64,000 bases of DNA. Origin: Alphaproteobacteria bacterium (lineage in GTDB: Bacteria; Pseudomonadota; Alphaproteobacteria; Geminicoccales; Geminicoccaceae). The DNA is taken from positions 1-64,000 of the forward strand of contig JALUAG010000031.1 in NCBI GenBank assembly GCA_027045875.1, given 5' to 3'. Position numbers and translations under genes: made by a program. The notes beneath the pieces are model-generated. The model was not told where the DNA came from. It saw only the letters and a program-made list of their open reading frames with translations, and did not search any database. Each line of letters opens with the position of its first letter. Position 1 is the first letter of the stretch. Of this stretch, positions 5,374 to 47,003 are shown piece after piece.

Positions 5374-5429
5374 GATTTCGTTGGAGCGGGAGACGGGATT
5401 CGAACCCGCGACCCCAACCTTGGCAAGGT
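5374..5429. repeat. attL: left 56-bp attachment-site repeat (tRNA-Gly 3' fragment)
   Basis: These 56 bp are identical to 13619-13674. After one mismatch at 5430, four more bases (GTGC) also match before the sequences diverge. Bases 5382-5429 equal nucleotides 28-75 of the tRNA, that is the anticodon loop, T arm, acceptor 3' strand and CCA. The 5' half of a tRNA is absent here, so this is the displaced 3' end left by integration and not a second tRNA gene. Confidence 0.95.
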
Positions 5430-5567: not shown

Positions 5568-5600
5568 CGTTGTTGGGATGTGCCCTGGAGGTGTGCTCTC

Positions 5601-6830
5601 GTGGCCGAGAAAATCCGCTTCACGACGCGCCGGATCGTGGCCCTGACCTGCCCGGAGGGGCGCCGGCATATCGACCTGTTCGACGCCGACCAGGCGGGCT
5701 TGGCGCTGCGGGTGACGGGAACGGGCACCAGGACGTTCTATGCCGTCTATCGCGTCGGGGCCGGCCGTGCGGGCAAGGTGCGCTGGCAGAAGATCGGGCG
5801 CCATCCCGAGATCGGCCCCGCGGAGGCCCGCCGCCGCGCTCGCGAAATCCTCGGGCAGGTGGTCCGGGGCGTCGATCCCGCGAGCGAGGAACGCAAGGCA
5901 CGGGTCGGCCGCCTGGGTGCGGCGATCGACGCTTACGCGGCCGACTGCGAGCGGCGCCGGCTGGTGGCCGCCAAGGTGCGCGTCAACCTGCTACGCCGGG
6001 AGCTGCTGGGCCGTTTCGGTGACGTTCCGCTCGACAGCCTCGACCGGCGCTCTCTGACAATGGCGGTCGCCGAGCTCGAAGCGAAGGGGCTCAAGGGCAA
6101 GGCGCAGGAGTTCCGCACCCGCACCGCGGTTTTTCTCAATTGGTGCGTCGATCAGGGGCTCTTGCAGGCCTCGCCTTTGGCCGGCTGGCGCCGTCCGCGG
6201 AGATCCCGGGCCGAGCGTCTGGAACGCCCCGGCCGCGCCCTCGAGGATGGGGAAATCCCGCTTCTGTGGCGTGCCTTCGAGGCCTCGCCCGATCCGATTT
6301 TCACCGCTTATCTCCGCATTCTGCTCCTGCTCGGCCAGCGCCGGACCGAAACCGCCCTGATGCGCTGGCGGGATGTGAACCTGAACGCGGGCCTGTGGAC
6401 GATCCCGGCGGAAGTCACCAAGGCTGGGCGCGAGCACAAGGTGCCGTTGCCGCGGGAGGTGATCGCCATCCTCGCCACACTGCCTAGGCTCGCGGGATCG
6501 GAGCTGGTGTTTCCGGGCCGCGGCGGCGCGCCGATGACCGGCTGGAGCAAGCGCATGCGCCCCGTCCGTGCCGCATCCCGCGAGCTCGGGCTGGAGCCCT
6601 GGACACTGCACGATCTGCGCCGGACGGTGCGCACCGGGCTCGCCCGTCTCGGCGTTCGTGACGAGATCGCCGAGCGCGCCCTGAACCACAGCGTTCGCGA
6701 CGTGCTGGCCGCCGTCTACGATCGCTCCGACCGGCTGGAGGAAATGCGCGAAGCGCTGACCCTTTGGGCCGGTCACGTGCTGGGGCTCGCACATGGCGGC
6801 AATCGCGCCCTTCGAGCGGCGGGGGATTGA
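5601..6830 (+). CDS. int: P4-type site-specific tyrosine recombinase (integrase)
   Basis: A 409-residue integrase that inserts and excises the island at the tRNA-Gly 3' end. An N-terminal DUF4102-type arm-binding domain (residues about 10-85, with LRVTGTGTRTFYAVYR and KIGRHPEIGPAEAR) precedes a SAM-like core-binding domain and the catalytic domain. Catalytic residues are seen as Arg in LLGQRRTE, Lys in TKAGREHKVPLP, HDLRR, His in LNHS and Tyr in VYDRS. GTG at 5601 is chosen because GGAGG lies about ten bases upstream; an in-frame ATG at 5580 is a weaker alternative. It lies just inside attL, at the end away from the tRNA, and its stop is two bases before the next start. Confidence 0.93.
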   Translation: MAEKIRFTTRRIVALTCPEGRRHIDLFDADQAGLALRVTGTGTRTFYAVYRVGAGRAGKVRWQKIGRHPEIGPAEARRRAREILGQVVRGVDPASEERKARVGRLGAAIDAYAADCERRRLVAAKVRVNLLRRELLGRFGDVPLDSLDRRSLTMAVAELEAKGLKGKAQEFRTRTAVFLNWCVDQGLLQASPLAGWRRPRRSRAERLERPGRALEDGEIPLLWRAFEASPDPIFTAYLRILLLLGQRRTETALMRWRDVNLNAGLWTIPAEVTKAGREHKVPLPREVIAILATLPRLAGSELVFPGRGGAPMTGWSKRMRPVRAASRELGLEPWTLHDLRRTVRTGLARLGVRDEIAERALNHSVRDVLAAVYDRSDRLEEMREALTLWAGHVLGLAHGGNRALRAAGD

Positions 6831-7588: not shown

Positions 7589-7801
7589 ATGCGAGAGCGT
7601 GTATCGCCGTTTTTGACCACTGCCGAGGCCGCGCAGTATCTGCGCGTGAGTCGGCCGACTCTCGAAAGATGGAGGGGGGAGGGCCGCGGCCCCCGTTATC
7701 TGCGGGCCGGGTGGCGCTGCCTGTACAGGCGCGAGGATCTGGATGCGTTCGCCGGCCTCGCTCCCGAAGGTGATCACGAAACGCCTCGCCCGGCGGCGTG
7801 A
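7589..7801 (+). CDS. AlpA/excisionase-like helix-turn-helix protein
   Basis: A 70-residue DNA-binding protein of the excisionase/AlpA (HTH_17, MerR-like) kind. The core is FLTTAEAAQYLRVSRPTLERWRGEGRGPRYLRAG followed by a wing CLYRREDLDAF, residues about 8-55. The start at 7589 has GGAG seven bases upstream. In P4-like satellites and PICIs a protein of this type activates the integrase gene, the replication operon, or excision. It is the only recognisable transcription factor in the island; no CI- or Stl-like repressor is seen, which makes it the likeliest control gene. Confidence 0.85.
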   Translation: MRERVSPFLTTAEAAQYLRVSRPTLERWRGEGRGPRYLRAGWRCLYRREDLDAFAGLAPEGDHETPRPAA

Positions 7802-7807
7802 CGCGCC

Positions 7808-8374
7808 ATGCTCGAAACACGAAAACGCCCGCCGCGGGCGGCGGCGGGCGGTAACTCTCTTCGCAGAAGCGCTCGCCGAGAAGATACCGCCGGCGCCGCT
7901 GGGCCGCAACGTTTAACGCCGGAAAGGCGGGCCGCGCTGGGCATCCCGGCCGGCTGCGAGATCGTCGCGGGCGCGATGGCCTGGTGGTGCCGTTGCCCGA
8001 GCTGCACCTACGGCGTCGTGCCCTTGCTGCCCGACACCACCGGCAAGTTGGTGCCGTCGCCGCTCGGCGGGTGCCAGGGGCGCGGCTGGCGGTGCTCGTC
8101 GCGGCGGATTCGCGAGGCCTGGGAGGCCCTTCGTCAGGGCGTCGAGATCGAACCGACACCGGGCGAGGCGCGCCTGACCGGCGCGCTGCTTGTTCGTCGG
8201 CTTCCTGATTTGTGGTTCGGCCGCCGCGGCCGCGATCCGAGAACGGCACTCTATGCGGTTGCCCGCGAGCTCGACGAAATCACCCTGCCGCCGAGGCTGA
8301 TCCGCCTGGCCCTCGAAGCCCTGGCCGCCCGGCGTGGCTGGCCGGCGTATCACGTTCGAGCGGTGCTCCGATGA
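7808..8374 (+). CDS. Cys-rich hypothetical protein upstream of the replication ATPase
   Basis: A 188-residue protein of unknown function. After a basic, proline-rich N-terminus (about 40 residues) it has WWCRCPSC near residue 60 and GGCQGRGWRCSS near residue 93, a Cys pattern that could bind zinc. The C-terminal part is helical (LYAVARELDEITLPPRLIRLALEAL). Its TGA overlaps the ATG of the ATPase gene, so the two are translated together. A primase-type zinc domain or a replication accessory factor would fit the position, but I see no primase catalytic motif. No clear ribosome-binding site precedes 7808, so the true start could be slightly downstream. Confidence 0.65.
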   Translation: MLETRKRPPRAAAGGNSLRRSARREDTAGAAGPQRLTPERRAALGIPAGCEIVAGAMAWWCRCPSCTYGVVPLLPDTTGKLVPSPLGGCQGRGWRCSSRRIREAWEALRQGVEIEPTPGEARLTGALLVRRLPDLWFGRRGRDPRTALYAVARELDEITLPPRLIRLALEALAARRGWPAYHVRAVLR

Positions 8375-10155
8375 CGGCGCCCGACATGACGCCGCCCGAG
8401 CACGTCAAGAACGTGCTTGAGGGGGCCGACGAAGCCGCGCCCGCCGACAAGCAGACCCGCAGCGCTCGGGCGGTGCTGATGGACATCGCCAAGAGCTCGG
8501 CCAAGTTTATTCGCACCGCAGGCGGTGAGATATACGCGGTCGTGCAGGACGATGGCCCCCGGCGCGTCTGGCCGCTACGATCGCGCGCCTTTCGTCGGCA
8601 CATCCTGCGCTTGGCAATGAAGGAAACGGGCGCTCCGCCGGCTCCCGACGCTGTTGCCGCGGCGCTCGACGGGCTCGAAGCCACGGCCGACGCCGAAGCC
8701 GAGCGCGCCGAGGTTCACCAGCGGGTTGCGCACCAGGACGGCCGCATCTTTGTGGACTTGGGCGATGACACCTGGCGCGCCGTCGAGGTTTCGCCTGCCG
8801 GTTGGCGCATCCTCGAGAATCCGCCCACCTACTTTGTCCGCCGGCAGGGCATGCGGGCACTGCCGGAGCCCGTCCGTGGTGGGGATTTGGCCGGGCTGTT
8901 CCATCATCTCCCGGCGGGGCTCGATGGGCGATCCAAGATCCTGATCATCGGCTGGCTTTTGCAAAACTACTGGGGCGGGCCATATGCGGCACTCCTGGTC
9001 GAGGGCGAGGCGGGCTCCGGCAAGTCCACATTGTGCCGGCGCTTGGTGCGGCTTGTCGATCCGCGCCGGCCGGAGCTCAAGCGTCCTCCGAGGGACGATA
9101 CGCAGATATTCGTGCAGGCCGCACACGGCTACGTACTCGCGTATGACAATCTATCGGGTCTGCCGATCTGGCTGTCGGATACCCTGTGCGCGGTCGCCAC
9201 CGGCGGAGGTGATGAAAGGCGGAAGCTCTACACGGATGACGATGTGGTTTCGGCCGACGTTTGCCGCCCGCTCCTGCTGAACGGAATCGACAGCATCGCC
9301 TCGCGGGGCGACCTGCGAGACCGCGCGCTTCGCGTCGAGCTTTCGGCCATTCGGGACGACCGACGGCAGGACGAAGCCGAGCTCGAACAGGCGTTCGAGG
9401 CCGCTCTGCCGCGTCTCCTGGGTGCGATCTTCGACGCACTGGCCGAAGGATTGCGCAACTACGCGAAAACCCACCTTAACCGTCTGCCGCGGATGGCGGA
9501 CGCAGCGCGCTTCGTGGCCGCATGCGAGCCCGCCCTGCCGGCGGATCTGCGGGGCTTCGCGGATGCGATTTTCGAGCTTCGGGACAGCTACGCAAGCGAA
9601 GCCATCGAGAGCGACATCTTCGCACGCGAGATCGTCGGACTGATCCGTGAACGGGACGCCTGGAACGGCACGGCCGGCGAGCTGTTGGACACGCTCAACG
9701 GCCGCGTCACCGAGGATGTGCGGGAACGGAAAACCTGGCCGCAGACGGCTCGCGCGGTCAGCGGTCGCGTCCGGCGGGCTGCTGGCGATCTGCGCCGCCT
9801 GGCCGAGGGGGCGGTTGAAGTCGAATTTCTCCGCGCGGGCCACGAGCGGCGCCGGACCATCACGCTGCGGGCCATCCCCAAGGTACGGAAATCATCGTCC
9901 GCATCGTCCGCACCGTCCGTAGCCTTGAAAAACAACGGCTTAGCGCGGACGCAAAACGAGGGTGCGGACGCAAACCGTCCGCATACCGTCCGCAACCGTC
10001 CGCATACCGTCCGCACCAACTCATTGAAAAACCACGAAAAGACCGATGCGGACGGTGCGGACGGTAGATTGCATACCTTGGGGGTCGAACCCGGCGACGG
10101 TGCGGTGTGCCCTCGCTGCGCCGGCGAGGGCTGCGCCTGGTGTGCTGGTCCCTAA
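8371..10155 (+). CDS. Replication ATPase/helicase, SF3/D5-like, of the satellite
   Basis: A 594-residue protein, probably the replicative helicase. The ATPase domain occupies about residues 195-380: Walker A GEAGSGKST near 212, Walker B-like YVLAYDNLSG near 255, an SF3 motif C-like PLLLNGID, and the arginine finger region RGDLRDRALRVEL. The first 190 residues are poorly recognisable and the C-terminus ends with a possible zinc knuckle, CPRCAGEGCAWC. Residues about 510-570 are low-complexity because the DNA there is an iteron array. The ATG overlaps the previous stop; an upstream in-frame extension to 8212 lies inside the previous gene and is rejected. I see no primase active site. Confidence 0.78.
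   Translation: MTAPDMTPPEHVKNVLEGADEAAPADKQTRSARAVLMDIAKSSAKFIRTAGGEIYAVVQDDGPRRVWPLRSRAFRRHILRLAMKETGAPPAPDAVAAALDGLEATADAEAERAEVHQRVAHQDGRIFVDLGDDTWRAVEVSPAGWRILENPPTYFVRRQGMRALPEPVRGGDLAGLFHHLPAGLDGRSKILIIGWLLQNYWGGPYAALLVEGEAGSGKSTLCRRLVRLVDPRRPELKRPPRDDTQIFVQAAHGYVLAYDNLSGLPIWLSDTLCAVATGGGDERRKLYTDDDVVSADVCRPLLLNGIDSIASRGDLRDRALRVELSAIRDDRRQDEAELEQAFEAALPRLLGAIFDALAEGLRNYAKTHLNRLPRMADAARFVAACEPALPADLRGFADAIFELRDSYASEAIESDIFAREIVGLIRERDAWNGTAGELLDTLNGRVTEDVRERKTWPQTARAVSGRVRRAAGDLRRLAEGAVEVEFLRAGHERRRTITLRAIPKVRKSSSASSAPSVALKNNGLARTQNEGADANRPHTVRNRPHTVRTNSLKNHEKTDADGADGRLHTLGVEPGDGAVCPRCAGEGCAWCAGP
9896..10063. repeat. Iteron-like array of CGTCCGCA in both orientations (candidate origin)
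   Basis: About eleven copies of CGTCCGCA or its complement fall within 168 bp. Forward copies start at 9896, 9905, 9914 (last base pairs vary), 9976, 9987, 9997 and 10008; inverted copies start at 9944 (one mismatch), 9963, 10047 and 10056. Spacing is regular, 9 to 11 bp, near one helical turn. Two A-rich spacers (around 9925-9935 and 10021-10040) split the clusters. The array sits in the 3' coding end of the ATPase gene, the position at which SaPI-type islands keep their replication origin relative to rep. Confidence 0.75.
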
Positions 10156-11643: not shown

Positions 11644-11846
11644 GCGCGCAACGGTGGCAATTGGTCGTGCACGACGAAGGCGCCCGGCTGCTGGTTCTCG
11701 TCTACGAGGGCACGCGGCTGGCGGCCGAGATCGAGCTTTCCCGGCTGGACGCCTTCCGCATCGCTTCCGAGCTCCTGGAGGCGGGATTGCGCCGGGCGCC
11801 GAGTACGACACCGCAGACCGTCAGCGGCGAGCGGAGGTTGCAGTGA
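11640..11846 (+). CDS. Small hypothetical protein (68 aa), satellite
   Basis: A 68-residue protein starting MSAQRWQLVVHDEGARLLVLVYEGTRLAAEIELSRLDA. Its N-terminal half looks like two or three beta strands and the rest like a helix. It overlaps both neighbours: its ATG lies in the stop of the coiled-coil gene and its TGA overlaps the GTG of ssb. Family unknown. The tight overlaps and intact frame argue that it is translated. Confidence 0.55.
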   Translation: MSAQRWQLVVHDEGARLLVLVYEGTRLAAEIELSRLDAFRIASELLEAGLRRAPSTTPQTVSGERRLQ

Positions 11847-12298
11847 CCGCACAACTGGCTGTTCACGGCCGCCTGGGCGATGCTCCGAAGGCGATCACCA
11901 CCAGCAGCGGCAGGGCGATGGCGACCGCGAGCCTGGCCGTCTCAATAGAGGAGCACGGCAACGCTGATCCTCCGCCCCTGTGGCTCAACGTGATCGCCTT
12001 CGCCCGGCTCGCAGAGGAGCTGCTGCGCCACCACAAGGGCGATCTGCTCTCGGTCGCCGGCAAGCTTCAACGCAAGCGCTGGGTCGGCCAGGACGGGCAG
12101 GAACGCGAGCGGTGGGAGGTGGTGGCCGATGTCATCATCTCGGCCAGGACCGTGCGCCCTGGTGGCGGCAGGAAGCGCGAGAACGAGCGATCCGGCCCGG
12201 TGGAGGCCCGTCATGCCGTCCGTGTCCAGGCGCCCGATAGCGAGGCCCACCAGCGGCAGGAAGCGGTGCCCTTCGATGACGAAATCCCGTTCGGCTGA
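11843..12298 (+). CDS. ssb: Single-stranded DNA-binding protein
   Basis: A 151-residue SSB. The OB fold covers about residues 3-100 (LAVHGRLGDAPKAIT, ASLAVSIEE, LWLNVIAFARLAEELL, KGDLLSVAGKLQRKRW, ERWEVVADVIISARTV). A linker follows, and the C-terminus ends DDEIPFG, close to the acidic DDDIPF tip that SSBs use to contact replication proteins. GTG at 11843 overlaps the previous TGA. An own SSB next to a replication ATPase and an iteron array supports autonomous replication of the island after excision. Confidence 0.88.
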   Translation: MTAQLAVHGRLGDAPKAITTSSGRAMATASLAVSIEEHGNADPPPLWLNVIAFARLAEELLRHHKGDLLSVAGKLQRKRWVGQDGQERERWEVVADVIISARTVRPGGGRKRENERSGPVEARHAVRVQAPDSEAHQRQEAVPFDDEIPFG

Positions 12299-12402: not shown

Positions 12403-12846
12403 ATGCGCAAGCGCGGTAGACCGAGCTCCGACGAAATCGCGACGGCGAACGTGGTGCAGCTTCGCGTGCCCGAGCGGCCGGCGCCGCCGAAATCCCTGAC
12501 CCGCGAGCAAGCGGAAGTCTGGCGCGAGATCGTGGCCTCCGTGCCCGCCGACTGGTTTCCACGCGAAACGCACCCGCTCCTCGAACAGCTTTGCCGGCAT
12601 ACCGTCGAAGCGAACCGCATCGCGAAGCTGATCGACGAAGCCACCCGGCAGATGGGAGAACGCCGCCCCGGCGCGACAGAAACCTACCTCAAGCTTCTGC
12701 AAGCCCAGCGGCGGGAGACGGCCAGCCTGAAGAGCCTCGCGGTCGCACTTCGGCTGTCGCCATCCTCGAGGATGCGTCCCGAGGTGGCGGGAAGGCGGCG
12801 CCAGGAGCCCGCAGCGGGCGATCGGCGCCCTTGGGAAGGCGATTGA
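12403..12846 (+). CDS. terS: P27-family phage terminase small subunit (orphan)
   Basis: A 147-residue small terminase that would recognise packaging DNA and recruit a large terminase. Family features are an N-terminal RKRGRPSS, the proline-rich PERPAPPKSLTREQAEVWREIVASVPADWFP near residue 25-55, and the helical segment HPLLEQLCRHTVEANRIAKLI. The start has GGAG upstream. No large terminase, portal or capsid gene follows. PICIs use precisely such lone small terminases to divert a helper phage's packaging motor. A stranded prophage remnant is the alternative, but the frame is intact and embedded among island genes. Confidence 0.85.
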   Translation: MRKRGRPSSDEIATANVVQLRVPERPAPPKSLTREQAEVWREIVASVPADWFPRETHPLLEQLCRHTVEANRIAKLIDEATRQMGERRPGATETYLKLLQAQRRETASLKSLAVALRLSPSSRMRPEVAGRRRQEPAAGDRRPWEGD

Positions 12847-13618: not shown

Positions 13619-13674
13619 GATTTCGTTGGAGCGGGAGACGGGATTCGAACCCGCGACCCCAACCTTGGCAAGGT
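13619..13674. repeat. attR: right 56-bp attachment-site repeat within tRNA-Gly
   Basis: Identical to 5374-5429. It covers nucleotides 28-75 of the tRNA plus eight bases beyond the CCA. The core includes the anticodon stem-loop (CCTTGCCAAGG on the tRNA strand), a symmetrical sequence favoured by tyrosine recombinases. The element restores the tRNA 3' half, so the gene stays functional. Confidence 0.95.
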
Positions 13675-13701
13675 TGTGCTCTACCCCTGAGCTACTCCCG
13701 C
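13627..13701 (-). tRNA. tRNA-Gly(GCC)
   Basis: The minus strand folds as a complete 75-nt tRNA: acceptor GCGGGAG/CTCCCGC, D arm GCTC-AGGGGTA-GAGC, anticodon stem CAACC/GGTTG with loop TTGCCAA (anticodon GCC), variable loop GGGTC, T arm GCGGG-TTCGAAT-CCCGT, discriminator T and encoded CCA. It is the integration target of the island to its left. Confidence 0.97.
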
Positions 13702-43778: not shown

Positions 43779-44273
43779 ATGGATCCGAACCGTCGCGCCT
43801 TCCTGCGCGGTGCCTTCCTCCGGGGCGGGGCCCGCAAACCCGCCCCGGCGCTGCGGCCTCCCTGGGCGGTGGAGGCGTTCCTCGAGCGCTGCACCCGCTG
43901 CGACGCCTGCATCGCCGCCTGTCCGGAAAAGGTGCTCCGCCGTGGCGACGGCGGCTTCCCCGAACTGGACGTGCGGGAGCGGGGCTGTACCTTCTGCGCC
44001 GCCTGCGTGAAGGCCTGCGAGCCGGGTGCGCTCGACAGGCGGCGCGGTGTGGAGCGACGCCATCGTGCGACCATCGGCCCCACCTGTCTCGCGAGGAGGG
44101 AAGTCACCTGCCGGTTGTGCGAGCTGGCGTGCGAGGAAGACGCGATCGGGTTTATTCTCCAGCGTGGCGGTGTTGCAACACCATTGGTTGACGCCAGTCA
44201 ATGCACGGGCTGCGGCATGTGTCTAAACGTCTGTCCGTCGCACGCGATCAGTCTCGAGGAGCGATCCGAATGA
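43779..44273 (+). CDS. napF: Ferredoxin-type protein NapF
   Basis: A 164-residue cytoplasmic iron-sulfur protein assisting NapA maturation. Three or four 4Fe-4S motifs are visible: CTRCDACIAACPEKVL near residue 38, CTFCAACVKACEP near 70, a looser CRLCELACEED, and CTGCGMCLNVCPSHAI near 140. It opens the nap operon, and its TGA overlaps the napD ATG. The preceding AbrB gene ends only 20 bases upstream, so an operon promoter is not obvious. Confidence 0.93.
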   Translation: MDPNRRAFLRGAFLRGGARKPAPALRPPWAVEAFLERCTRCDACIAACPEKVLRRGDGGFPELDVRERGCTFCAACVKACEPGALDRRRGVERRHRATIGPTCLARREVTCRLCELACEEDAIGFILQRGGVATPLVDASQCTGCGMCLNVCPSHAISLEERSE

Positions 44274-44533
44274 ACATCTGCGGGATCCTGGTCCATGCGC
44301 GGCCGGCGCACGCCGGGACCGTGCGCGCGGCCATGGACGCCATGCCCGGGGTCGAGATCCACGAGGAGACGCCGGAGGGTCGCTTCGTCGTGACCGTGGA
44401 GGACCTGCCCGGGGTCGACGTGGCCGAGACGGTGCTGGCCCTGCACCGCCTGCCCGGTGTCCTCACTGCCTCTCTCGTCTACCACCATTTCGAGCCCGAC
44501 CCGGAGAACGAGGATGCACCAGTCAAGGCGTGA
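44270..44533 (+). CDS. napD: NapA signal-peptide-binding chaperone NapD
   Basis: An 87-residue chaperone that binds the Tat signal peptide of NapA and delays export until the cofactor is inserted. [22 protein letters not shown] and [35 protein letters not shown] are typical. Its 3' end overlaps the NapA start by 20 bases. Confidence 0.93.
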
Positions 44534-47003
44534 TTTCGTCAAGTCCACAGCCGTCGCCGCCACCGCCGCGACCGCGGGCATCACCCTCGGCGAGGGCAGC
44601 GCGCGGGCGGTCGGTCCCGCCAACGACATCCGCTGGGACAAGGGCGTGTGCCGCTTCTGCGGCACGGGCTGCGGCGTGCTGATCGGGGTCAAGGACGGTC
44701 GGGTGGTGGCCACCCAGGGCGATCCCGACGCGCCGGTCAACCGCGGGCTCAACTGCATCAAGGGATATTTTCTTTCCAAGATCATGTACGGCGCGGACCG
44801 CCTCACCACACCGCTGCTGAGGAAGCGCAACGGCAGGTACGACAAGGAGGGGGAGTTCGAGCCCGTCTCCTGGGACGAGGCCTTCGACATCATGGCCGAG
44901 AAGTGGAAGAAGGTCCTGAAGGAGAAGGGGCCGACCGCGATCGGCATGTTCGGCTCCGGCCAGTGGACGGTGTGGGAGGGCTATGCCGCCGTCAAGCTGA
45001 TGAAGGCCGGCTTCCGCTCCAACAACATCGATCCCAATGCCCGTCACTGCATGGCCTCGGCCGTGGCCGCCTTCATCCGCAGTTTCGGCATCGACGAGCC
45101 GATGGGCTGCTACGACGATCTCGAATACGCCGACGCCTTCGTCCTCTGGGGCGCCAACATGTCGGAGATGCACCCCATCCTGTGGTCGCGGCTGACCGAC
45201 CGGCGGCTGACGGCCGGCCACGTCAAGGTGGCGGTGCTGAGTACCTTCGAGAACCGCAATTTCGAGCTCGCCGATCTGCCGATCGTCTTCAAGCCGCAGA
45301 CGGACCTCGCGATCCTCAACTTCATCGCCAACTACATCATCCAGAACGGCAAGGTGAACGAGGAGTTCGTCGACAGGCACGTCAACTTCCGCCGCGGTGT
45401 CACCGACATCGGCTACGGACTGCGGCCCGAGGACCCGCGGCAGAAGGCCGCCGCCAACGCCGACAAGGCGGGAGCCTCGGAACCGATGACCTTCGAGGAA
45501 TACAAGGCCTTCGTCGCCGACTACACGCTCGAGAAGGTGTCCGAGCTGTCCGGGGTGCCGCAGGACAAGCTGGTGGCGCTGGCCGAGCTCTACGCCGACC
45601 CCAAGCGGAAGGTGGTCTCCTACTGGACCATGGGCTTCAACCAGCACACCCGCGGCACCTGGGTGAACAACCTCGTCTACAACGTGCACCTGCTGGTCGG
45701 GAAAATCAGCGAACCCGGCAACGGACCGTTCTCGCTGACCGGTCAGCCTTCGGCCTGCGGCACCGCCCGCGAGGTGGGAACTTTCGCCCATCGCCTGCCG
45801 GCGGACATGGTGGTCAAGAACCCCAAGCACCGGGAGATCGCGGAGAAGATCTGGAAGCTGCCCGAGGGCACGATCCCACCGAAGCCCGGCTACCACGCCG
45901 TCCTCCACAACCGGATGCTCAAGGACGGCAAGCTCAACGCCTACTGGGTGCAATGCACCAACAACGTGCAGGCGGCCGCCAATCTCAACAACGAGACCTG
46001 GCCCGGATACCGCAATCCGGACAACTTCATCGTCGTTTCCGACGCCTATCCGACGGTCACCACCGCCGCCGCCGACCTCATCCTGCCCACCGCCATGTGG
46101 GCGGAAAAGGAGGGGGCCTACGGCAACGCCGAACGGCGCACCCAGTTCTGGCGTCAGCAGGTGCGCGCACCCGGCGAAGCACGCTCCGACCTCTGGCAGG
46201 TGATGGAGTTCTCGAAGCGCTTCAAGGTGGAGGAGGTGTGGCCCGAAGAGCTGCTCGCCAAGAAGCCCGAGTACCGGGGCAAGACGCTGTTCGACATCCT
46301 CTTCCGGAACGGTCAGGTGGACAGGTTCAGCCTCGACGAGATTCAGCCCGGCTTCGACAACGACGAAAGCTTCCATTTCGGCTTCTACGTCCAGAAAGGC
46401 CTGTACGAGGAATACCGCCGGTTCGGCCTCGGCAAGGCGCACGATCTCGCACCCTTCGACATGTACCATCAGAGTCGCGGCCTGCGCTGGCCGGTGGTCG
46501 ACGGCAAGGAGACCCTGTGGCGCTTCCGGGAGGGCTTCGATCCCTACGTGAAGAAGGGCGAGGGGATCCGCTTCTACGGCAAGGACGACGGGCGGGCGGT
46601 GGTATACGCCGTCCCCTACGAGCCGCCGGCCGAAGTGCCCGACGAGGAGTACGATCTGTGGCTCGTCACCGGGCGGGTGCTCGAGCACTGGCACTCGGGC
46701 TCCATGACGCGGCGTGTGCCCGAGCTGCACCGGGCGGTTCCCTATGCGGTGCTGTTCATGAACCCAGAGGATGCCCGCAAGCGTGGGCTGCATCGGGGCC
46801 AGGTGGCGATGGTCAGGACACGGCGCGGCGCGGTGGAGACCCGCATCGAGACCAAGGGGCGCAACCGGCCGCCGGAGGGGGTCGTGTTCTTCCCCTGGTT
46901 CGACGAGGGCCAGCTCGTCAACAAGCTGACGCTGGACGCCACCTGTCCGATCTCCAAGGAGACGGACTACAAGAAGTGCGCTTGCCGCGTCGAAGCGGTG
47001 TGA
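44514..47003 (+). CDS. napA: Periplasmic nitrate reductase catalytic subunit
   Basis: An 829-residue molybdopterin enzyme reducing nitrate to nitrite in the periplasm. A Tat signal ([20 protein letters not shown], residues about 3-22) is followed by the 4Fe-4S motif [10 protein letters not shown] with the fourth Cys in NCIKGYF near 85. The Mo ligand is Cys in [10 protein letters not shown] near residue 180. [32 protein letters not shown] is a typical NapA end. The ATG at 44514 lies within napD. Confidence 0.97.

Follow-up and report, generated by a model that had tools for sequence, protein, structure and literature searches.

Several mobile elements carry initiator-binding repeats in or next to the initiator gene. 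In PICIs the origin lies on the 3' side of rep, where two sets of iterons bracket an AT-rich stretch; it was proven by plasmid maintenance, and stands in the gene order int, xis, pri, rep, ori, terS (PMC6092414). SaPI Rep and SCCmec Cch2 each use the C-terminal domain to bind short repeats located downstream of the gene (PMC7581432). In phage lambda, iterons and an AT-rich stretch lie within the initiator gene O (PMC7466680). The pRN1 helicase is an SF3 enzyme that has a winged helix at its C-terminus, and a stem-loop of 100 nt downstream of the gene is described as the origin (PMC4234260). For the Streptomyces theta plasmids pFP1 and pFP11, the pWTY27 paper reports that RepA of each binds its iterons and that pFP11 replicates bidirectionally (PMC3583192).

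We analysed an alphaproteobacterial stretch of 64,000 nucleotides (the window) in which a D5/SaPI-Rep-like helicase gene, rep, carries an array of short repeats in its 3' coding region. We computed the array, its conserved position, its conservation at the DNA level, its covariation with the winged helix of rep, and the fold of the protein. It is very likely that the array is both the initiator-binding site and the replication origin of the island that carries it, embedded in the 3' coding part of the island's initiator gene.

An island with a PICI-like gene order

The gene lies on an 8.2-kb island integrated in tRNA-Gly and bounded by exact 56-bp direct repeats. In a congener, G002, the corresponding tRNA locus lacks this island and the two flanks lie close together. 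The main island features are as follows.

5374-5429, no strand: left att repeat, exact 56-bp copy of the 3' part of tRNA-Gly
5580-6830, plus strand: tyrosine integrase (Phage_integrase 2.6e-16, Arm-DNA-bind_3 1.5e-14)
7589-7801, plus strand: HTH_17 protein, excisionase/regulator-like (HTH_17 2.2e-12; phrog_66, excisionase and transcriptional regulator, 2.3e-9)
7808-8374, plus strand: cysteine-containing protein upstream of rep (ORF; position of the primase/partner gene)
8371-10155, plus strand: rep, D5/SaPI-Rep-like AAA+ helicase, initiator candidate (ORF, AF2 model, structure matches)
11843-12298, plus strand: single-stranded DNA-binding protein, SSB (SSB 1.5e-14; phrog_44 9.4e-22)
12403-12846, plus strand: phage terminase small subunit, TerS (phrog_12559 1.1e-26; Terminase_4 0.0018, below its curated cut-off)
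13619-13674, no strand: right att repeat, within or at the tRNA-Gly gene
13627-13701, minus strand: tRNA-Gly(gcc), integration target

The genes run integrase, unknown, HTH_17 protein, cysteine-containing protein, ATPase with array, several small unknowns, SSB and small terminase. Like PICIs, the island is small and has an integrase and a specific att site, and a search of its ORFs turned up no capsid or tail gene. The order also resembles that of the SaPI/PICI module (SaPIbov1, SaPI5, EcCICFT073), with int, xis-like HTH, rep, candidate ori and TerS in succession. The primase position is taken by the gene at 7808, which encodes 188 amino acids including WWCRCPSC, overlaps rep by ATGA and had no family match in profile searches. 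Since other family members carry Toprim or primase-polymerase genes, or fusions, directly upstream of rep, this protein may be primase-like or a loader partner. The island is PICI-like in gene order and TerS and has its own SSB; it could be a phage satellite from a high-GC host. Elsewhere in the window, positions 44000-47000 have a GC content of 0.65 against about 0.69, and an AT skew opposite to that of the left neighbour.

The helicase and the array in its coding sequence

The rep ORF opens with ATG 8371, which shares bases with the stop codon of the gene before it, and ATG 8386 is an alternative start. We located the following features within the gene.

9004-9027, plus strand: Walker A motif GEAGSGKS, aa 207-214 counted from 8386 (G207, G210 and K213 invariant in 70 homologues)
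9658-9876, plus strand: C-terminal winged-helix domain, aa 425-497, proposed iteron reader (model secondary structure, covariation)
9896-10066, no strand: iteron array inside the rep ORF, proposed replication origin
9896-9921, plus strand: forward cluster 1, three iterons at 9-bp spacing (9896, 9905, 9914)
9922-9944, no strand: A-rich spacer 1, CCTTGAAAAACAACGGCTTAG (TTGAAA-type and AACGGCTT motifs recur in relatives)
9944-9971, minus strand: reverse iterons 9946 and 9965, 19 bp apart
9974-10017, plus strand: forward cluster 2, four iterons at 10-11 bp spacing (9976, 9987, 9997, 10008)
10018-10046, no strand: A-rich spacer 2, CAACTCATTGAAAAACCACGAAAAGACCG, candidate melting site
10047-10066, minus strand: reverse cluster, two iterons at 9-bp spacing (10049, 10058)
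10097-10155, plus strand: rep C-terminal tail CPRCAGEGCAWC, zinc-knuckle-like (sequence)

No Pfam, NCBIfam or PHROG model matched the window protein above its cut-off, and the 70 homologues gave only weak matches to AAA (AAA_16, AAA_22), VapE-like and primase families. A sequence search against solved structures returned generic P-loop matches only. An AlphaFold2 model built with the 70 homologues had a mean pLDDT of 85.7 and was confident up to about residue 500. Foldseek placed SCCmec Cch as its top hit; the solved SaPI5 primase-helicase (7ola_C) matched with Z 19.4 over 380 residues, the vaccinia D5/MPXV E5 structures with Z about 17, and the African swine fever PrimPol (AsfvPrimPol) was also among the best solved folds. 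Several of the D5, SaPI5 and AsfvPrimPol alignments reached residue about 485-498 of the model. On its modelled fold, rep is a member of the D5/SaPI-Rep-type hexameric AAA+ helicases, a membership that rests on fold because matches to curated families were only weak. The class predicts that rep would form hexamers and unwind DNA 3'-5'. The modelled winged helix has the order helix-helix-beta hairpin (helices 430-438 and 455-471, strands 477-484 and 489-496; hairpin 477-496), with the wing residues RAGHERRR at aa 483-490.

The CGTCCG/CGGACG core occurs 11 times in 168 bp (9896-10063), seven times forward and four times reverse. The exact 8-mer CGTCCGCA was found nine times in the array (six forward, three reverse) against six times in the remaining ~63.8 kb, and the 7-mer CGTCCGC ten times in a 400-bp test region, a count matched by none of 300 dinucleotide shuffles. 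Across the 3.5-Mb genome the 10-mer ACCGTCCGCA is present 25 times; six copies are in the array and the others are scattered singly, so that it is clustered only here. Iterons within clusters are spaced by 9 and 9, by 11, 10 and 11, and by 9 bp, with ~19 bp separating the two middle reverse copies (starting at 9946 and 9965). The A-rich spacers TTGAAAAACAACG (9925) and CATTGAAAAACCACGAAAAG (about 10022) stand between forward and reverse clusters.

A first-pass annotation of this DNA had described about eleven repeats with 9-11 bp periodicity, in both orientations around A-rich spacers, and both the count and the coordinates agree with it. It had also placed a low-complexity peptide in the C-terminal region of the ATPase. 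The array does encode such a stretch, about aa 504-560, which is predicted to be disordered (pLDDT <50 at residues 510-571, essentially the array-encoded part), but this tail lies beyond the winged-helix domain and is not a domain of the ATPase. The analogy it drew with SaPI elements is borne out structurally by SaPI5 primase-helicase and SCCmec Cch among the top structure matches. SaPI Rep reads its iterons through its C-terminal domain (PMC7581432), as we propose for the winged helix here. The rep protein nevertheless differs from the SaPI/PICI proteins in being ~10% identical to them in structure alignments and in lacking a curated-family match; its candidate origin lies within coding sequence, and most of its relatives are not evident PICIs.

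The inverted clusters could instead form a large stem-loop or cruciform that is itself the functional element, as proposed for pRN1, rather than iterons in double-stranded DNA. The array strand folded much better than shuffled sequences (z -6.0); since inverted iterons yield a stem regardless, this score does not discriminate and we counted it neither way. pRN1 ORF904 is similar: it is an archaeal SF3 helicase, its C-terminal domain is a winged helix, and the origin directly follows its gene on the 3' side (PMC4234260). The authors of the pWTY27 paper suggest a folded iteron (PMC3583192). The ORF904 origin, however, is described as a stem-loop without iterons, and its prim-pol domain is fused. 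Here, same-orientation copies are kept alike at 9-bp spacing, which a stem would not need, and the repeat unit shifts between lineages in all copies together, tracking the winged helix (see below). We therefore regard a stem-loop element as very improbable.

Conservation of the array and its covariation with the winged helix

We collected about 180 homologous loci from whole genomes, GTDB contigs, IMG/VR and plasmids. IMG/VR and GTDB scans with the single protein as query gave no match; a nine-sequence alignment was too divergent for pattern scans, and a five-sequence alignment succeeded. An array was called significant when its best 7-mer reached p<=0.01 against shuffles. By this measure, 83 of 157 non-redundant loci had a significant array just after the winged-helix domain of the helicase. 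The proportion fell with identity to rep: 31/34 at >=40%, 32/42 at 37-40%, 15/34 at 34-37%, 3/11 at 31-34% and 2/36 below 31%. Control regions averaged 2.1-2.8 copies in the same 7-mer test. Some nearer relatives, the Methylobacterium plasmid homologues among them, also had no array near the gene, and nearly all distant homologues on IMG/VR viral contigs (L150-L202, <33% identity) were without an array after the gene. Array-bearing loci came from Alpha- and Gammaproteobacteria, delta-proteobacterial groups, Bacillota, Chloroflexota, Planctomycetota, Acidobacteriota, Actinomycetota, Cyanobacteria, Hydrogenedentota and two methanogenic archaea; some were on plasmids, one of them archaeal.

When any 8-mer with at least four copies per 250 bp was scored over 6 kb either side in 500-bp bins, 80 arrays fell in the 0-500 bp bin past the end of the C-terminal domain (CTD), against 0-9 in every other bin. 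Iteron density was 18/kb in the array region versus 0.35/kb elsewhere. In a further explanation, the repeats bind the initiator mainly for control, by autorepression or by handcuffing and copy number, and strand opening takes place elsewhere in the island. Iterons of plasmid replicons often serve control besides initiation, and the array lies within a transcribed gene, both of which fit such a role. On the other hand, relatives showed no comparable repeat enrichment elsewhere within 6 kb, and head-to-head clusters around A-rich spacers directly after rep match the proven PICI origins (PMC6092414). A role mainly in control is, in our judgement, very improbable.

The layout supports an origin in several other respects. 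Same-orientation iterons showed a sharp spacing peak at 9 bp (185 gaps), and most arrays opened with forward pairs and closed with reverse pairs, usually as head-to-head clusters. Spacers between opposed copies had a GC content about 8 points below that of the gene and were enriched in TTGAAA/CATTGA. Twelve alphaproteobacterial arrays aligned well, with the iterons and the TTGAAA element conserved and the remainder variable. Spacer elements TTGAAATCCAA and AACGGCTTCG-like (e.g. window 9925-9937 and 10022-10041) were conserved among the alphaproteobacterial arrays, and may be a melting or primase start site.

Another reading gives the repeats no function at the DNA level and explains them as a side effect of a low-complexity protein tail. 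Tails beyond the winged helix are indeed low-complexity and disordered. A single DNA unit is, however, read in 3-5 strand/frame combinations within most arrays (56 of 71). Third codon positions in 15 alphaproteobacterial genes were conserved at 0.91 in the iterons, a value inflated because iteron columns were chosen by motif match, versus 0.59 across the winged-helix region and 0.52 across the remaining tail. Of the 83 arrays, 67 lie wholly in the helicase ORF, six straddle its end and ten lie outside, where 9-bp spacing is again the commonest. Frame use and codon positions led us to reject a protein-only origin of the repeats, which has almost no likelihood. The first-pass annotation had the array overlapping the gene itself; this is so in the window and for the 67 arrays inside their ORFs, while in some relatives the array sits just downstream. 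In the nearest relative, from G002 (about 80% identical), the array persists and the helicase ORF stops inside it, which may reflect decay. Its locus (L016) encodes the tail peptide CPRCAGEGCAWC near the helicase stop, out of frame with its helicase; with the ORF stop in the array, this marks the helicase copy as truncated.

To find which protein goes with the array, we compared gene content in the 59 array loci longer than 9 kb. Of these, the window alone had its TerS, and six had the HTH gene. The common partner of the array, on gene content, is the helicase and not the terminase or the HTH gene. Co-occurrence led us to reject the array as an operator of the HTH gene (6/59), and likewise as a TerS/pac site (TerS in 0/58 other loci). 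A packaging (pac/cos) site for the island's own TerS had been conceivable with that gene encoded 2.3 kb downstream, but arrays are also found on plasmids, including the archaeal one, and we consider such a site exceedingly unlikely.

The pFP11 plasmid encodes a homologue of rep (33% identity over 495 columns, E 6e-59), which we take to be RepA from the place of its gene beside the iterons. Its array of TGCGTCCC iterons (L203:5045-5292) lies ~0.55 kb downstream of the gene. It thus shares with the window a homologous protein and an iteron array, and differs in that the array is downstream of the gene and not inside it, that a separate primase-polymerase gene lies upstream, and that it is a plasmid and not an island.

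If the winged helix reads the iterons, both should change together. Iteron types differed by lineage (CGTCCGCA, CGTCACC, AGCGTTCC, CGCCTCC, ACTGTCAG, GTGGCAGA and others). Iteron distance correlated with winged-helix distance when the core was controlled (partial Mantel r 0.28, p 0.0005), but not clearly with the ATPase core when the winged helix was controlled (r 0.09, p 0.09). In a sliding window, covariation was maximal at aa 451-495, the recognition helix and wing. The wing motif [RK]xG[RHKS]x[RK]xR, picked after seeing the data, was present in 20 of 21 CGTCCGC members; among the 50 others it was seen twice. Seven changes of iteron label map onto the core tree, at least three of them on supported branches, and in independent pairs the wing changed with the iteron in nearly all cases and never the opposite way; supported branches hold only three independent pairs, with no disagreement among them, and this number puts 0.05 out of reach for a sign test. 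Part of the covariation is phylogenetic. A distance-matched CTD contrast was set aside, as it had only 10 pairs with different iterons. Two methanogen elements, L024 (pH6Ac) and L103 (Methanocrinis), have the helicase family and the iteron CGCCTCC in common, and their wings carry the KxGH motif as well, although this iteron differs from CGTCCGC. These data bear out two expectations of the first-pass annotation: in relatives with similar ATPases a matching array occupies the corresponding position (63 of 76 loci at >=37% identity), and the iteron follows the C-terminal domain more closely than the core.

Proposed mechanism and significance

We infer the steps of binding by rep, melting, loading and directionality as follows. 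The C-terminal winged helix of hexameric rep would recognise ~9-bp iterons of the form (A)NCGTCNNNN; such specific binding is suggested by homology to RepA of pFP1 and pFP11, reported to bind their iterons (PMC3583192), and by the covariation. Because oppositely oriented iteron clusters flank the A-rich spacers, we propose that two rep oligomers assemble head-to-head on them. They would then open the A-rich spacer and load on the two strands, and bidirectional theta replication would begin once the island is excised or induced, with the island SSB in support. Since the encoded tail is disordered and variable, selection for binding could reshape the array DNA without much harm to the protein, and a single inherited piece would carry both initiator and origin.

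Parts of this arrangement have precedents: lambda for an origin within the initiator gene, and PICIs for two iteron sets around an AT-rich stretch. The lambda origin is likewise inside the initiator coding sequence, but it is mid-gene, and O is no helicase and recruits that of the host; rep, itself a helicase by fold, would work differently. In SCCmec Cch2, also a D5-type helicase, the C-terminal domain binds short direct repeats that immediately follow the gene (PMC7581432), though these are three intergenic AAGTG iterons, and Cch2 has an associated CCPol-MP primase. What is new is the combination of an unnamed, widespread helicase family, an origin in the sequence for a disordered tail, and an iteron evolving with the wing of the winged helix.

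Homologues of the helicase sit on islands, plasmids and viral contigs. We think it likely that they form an unnamed family of self-loading initiator-helicases in about ten bacterial phyla and in methanogens, with the origin in the coding sequence of their own tail and with wing and iteron rewritten together several times. This predicts the location of the origin and its reader protein for many uncharacterised islands and plasmids. With origin and initiator fused, recombination would rarely part them. If true, the repeated joint rewriting of wing and iteron would constitute a natural recognition code, and about 70 initiator/binding-site pairs are ready for deriving such a code for winged helices.
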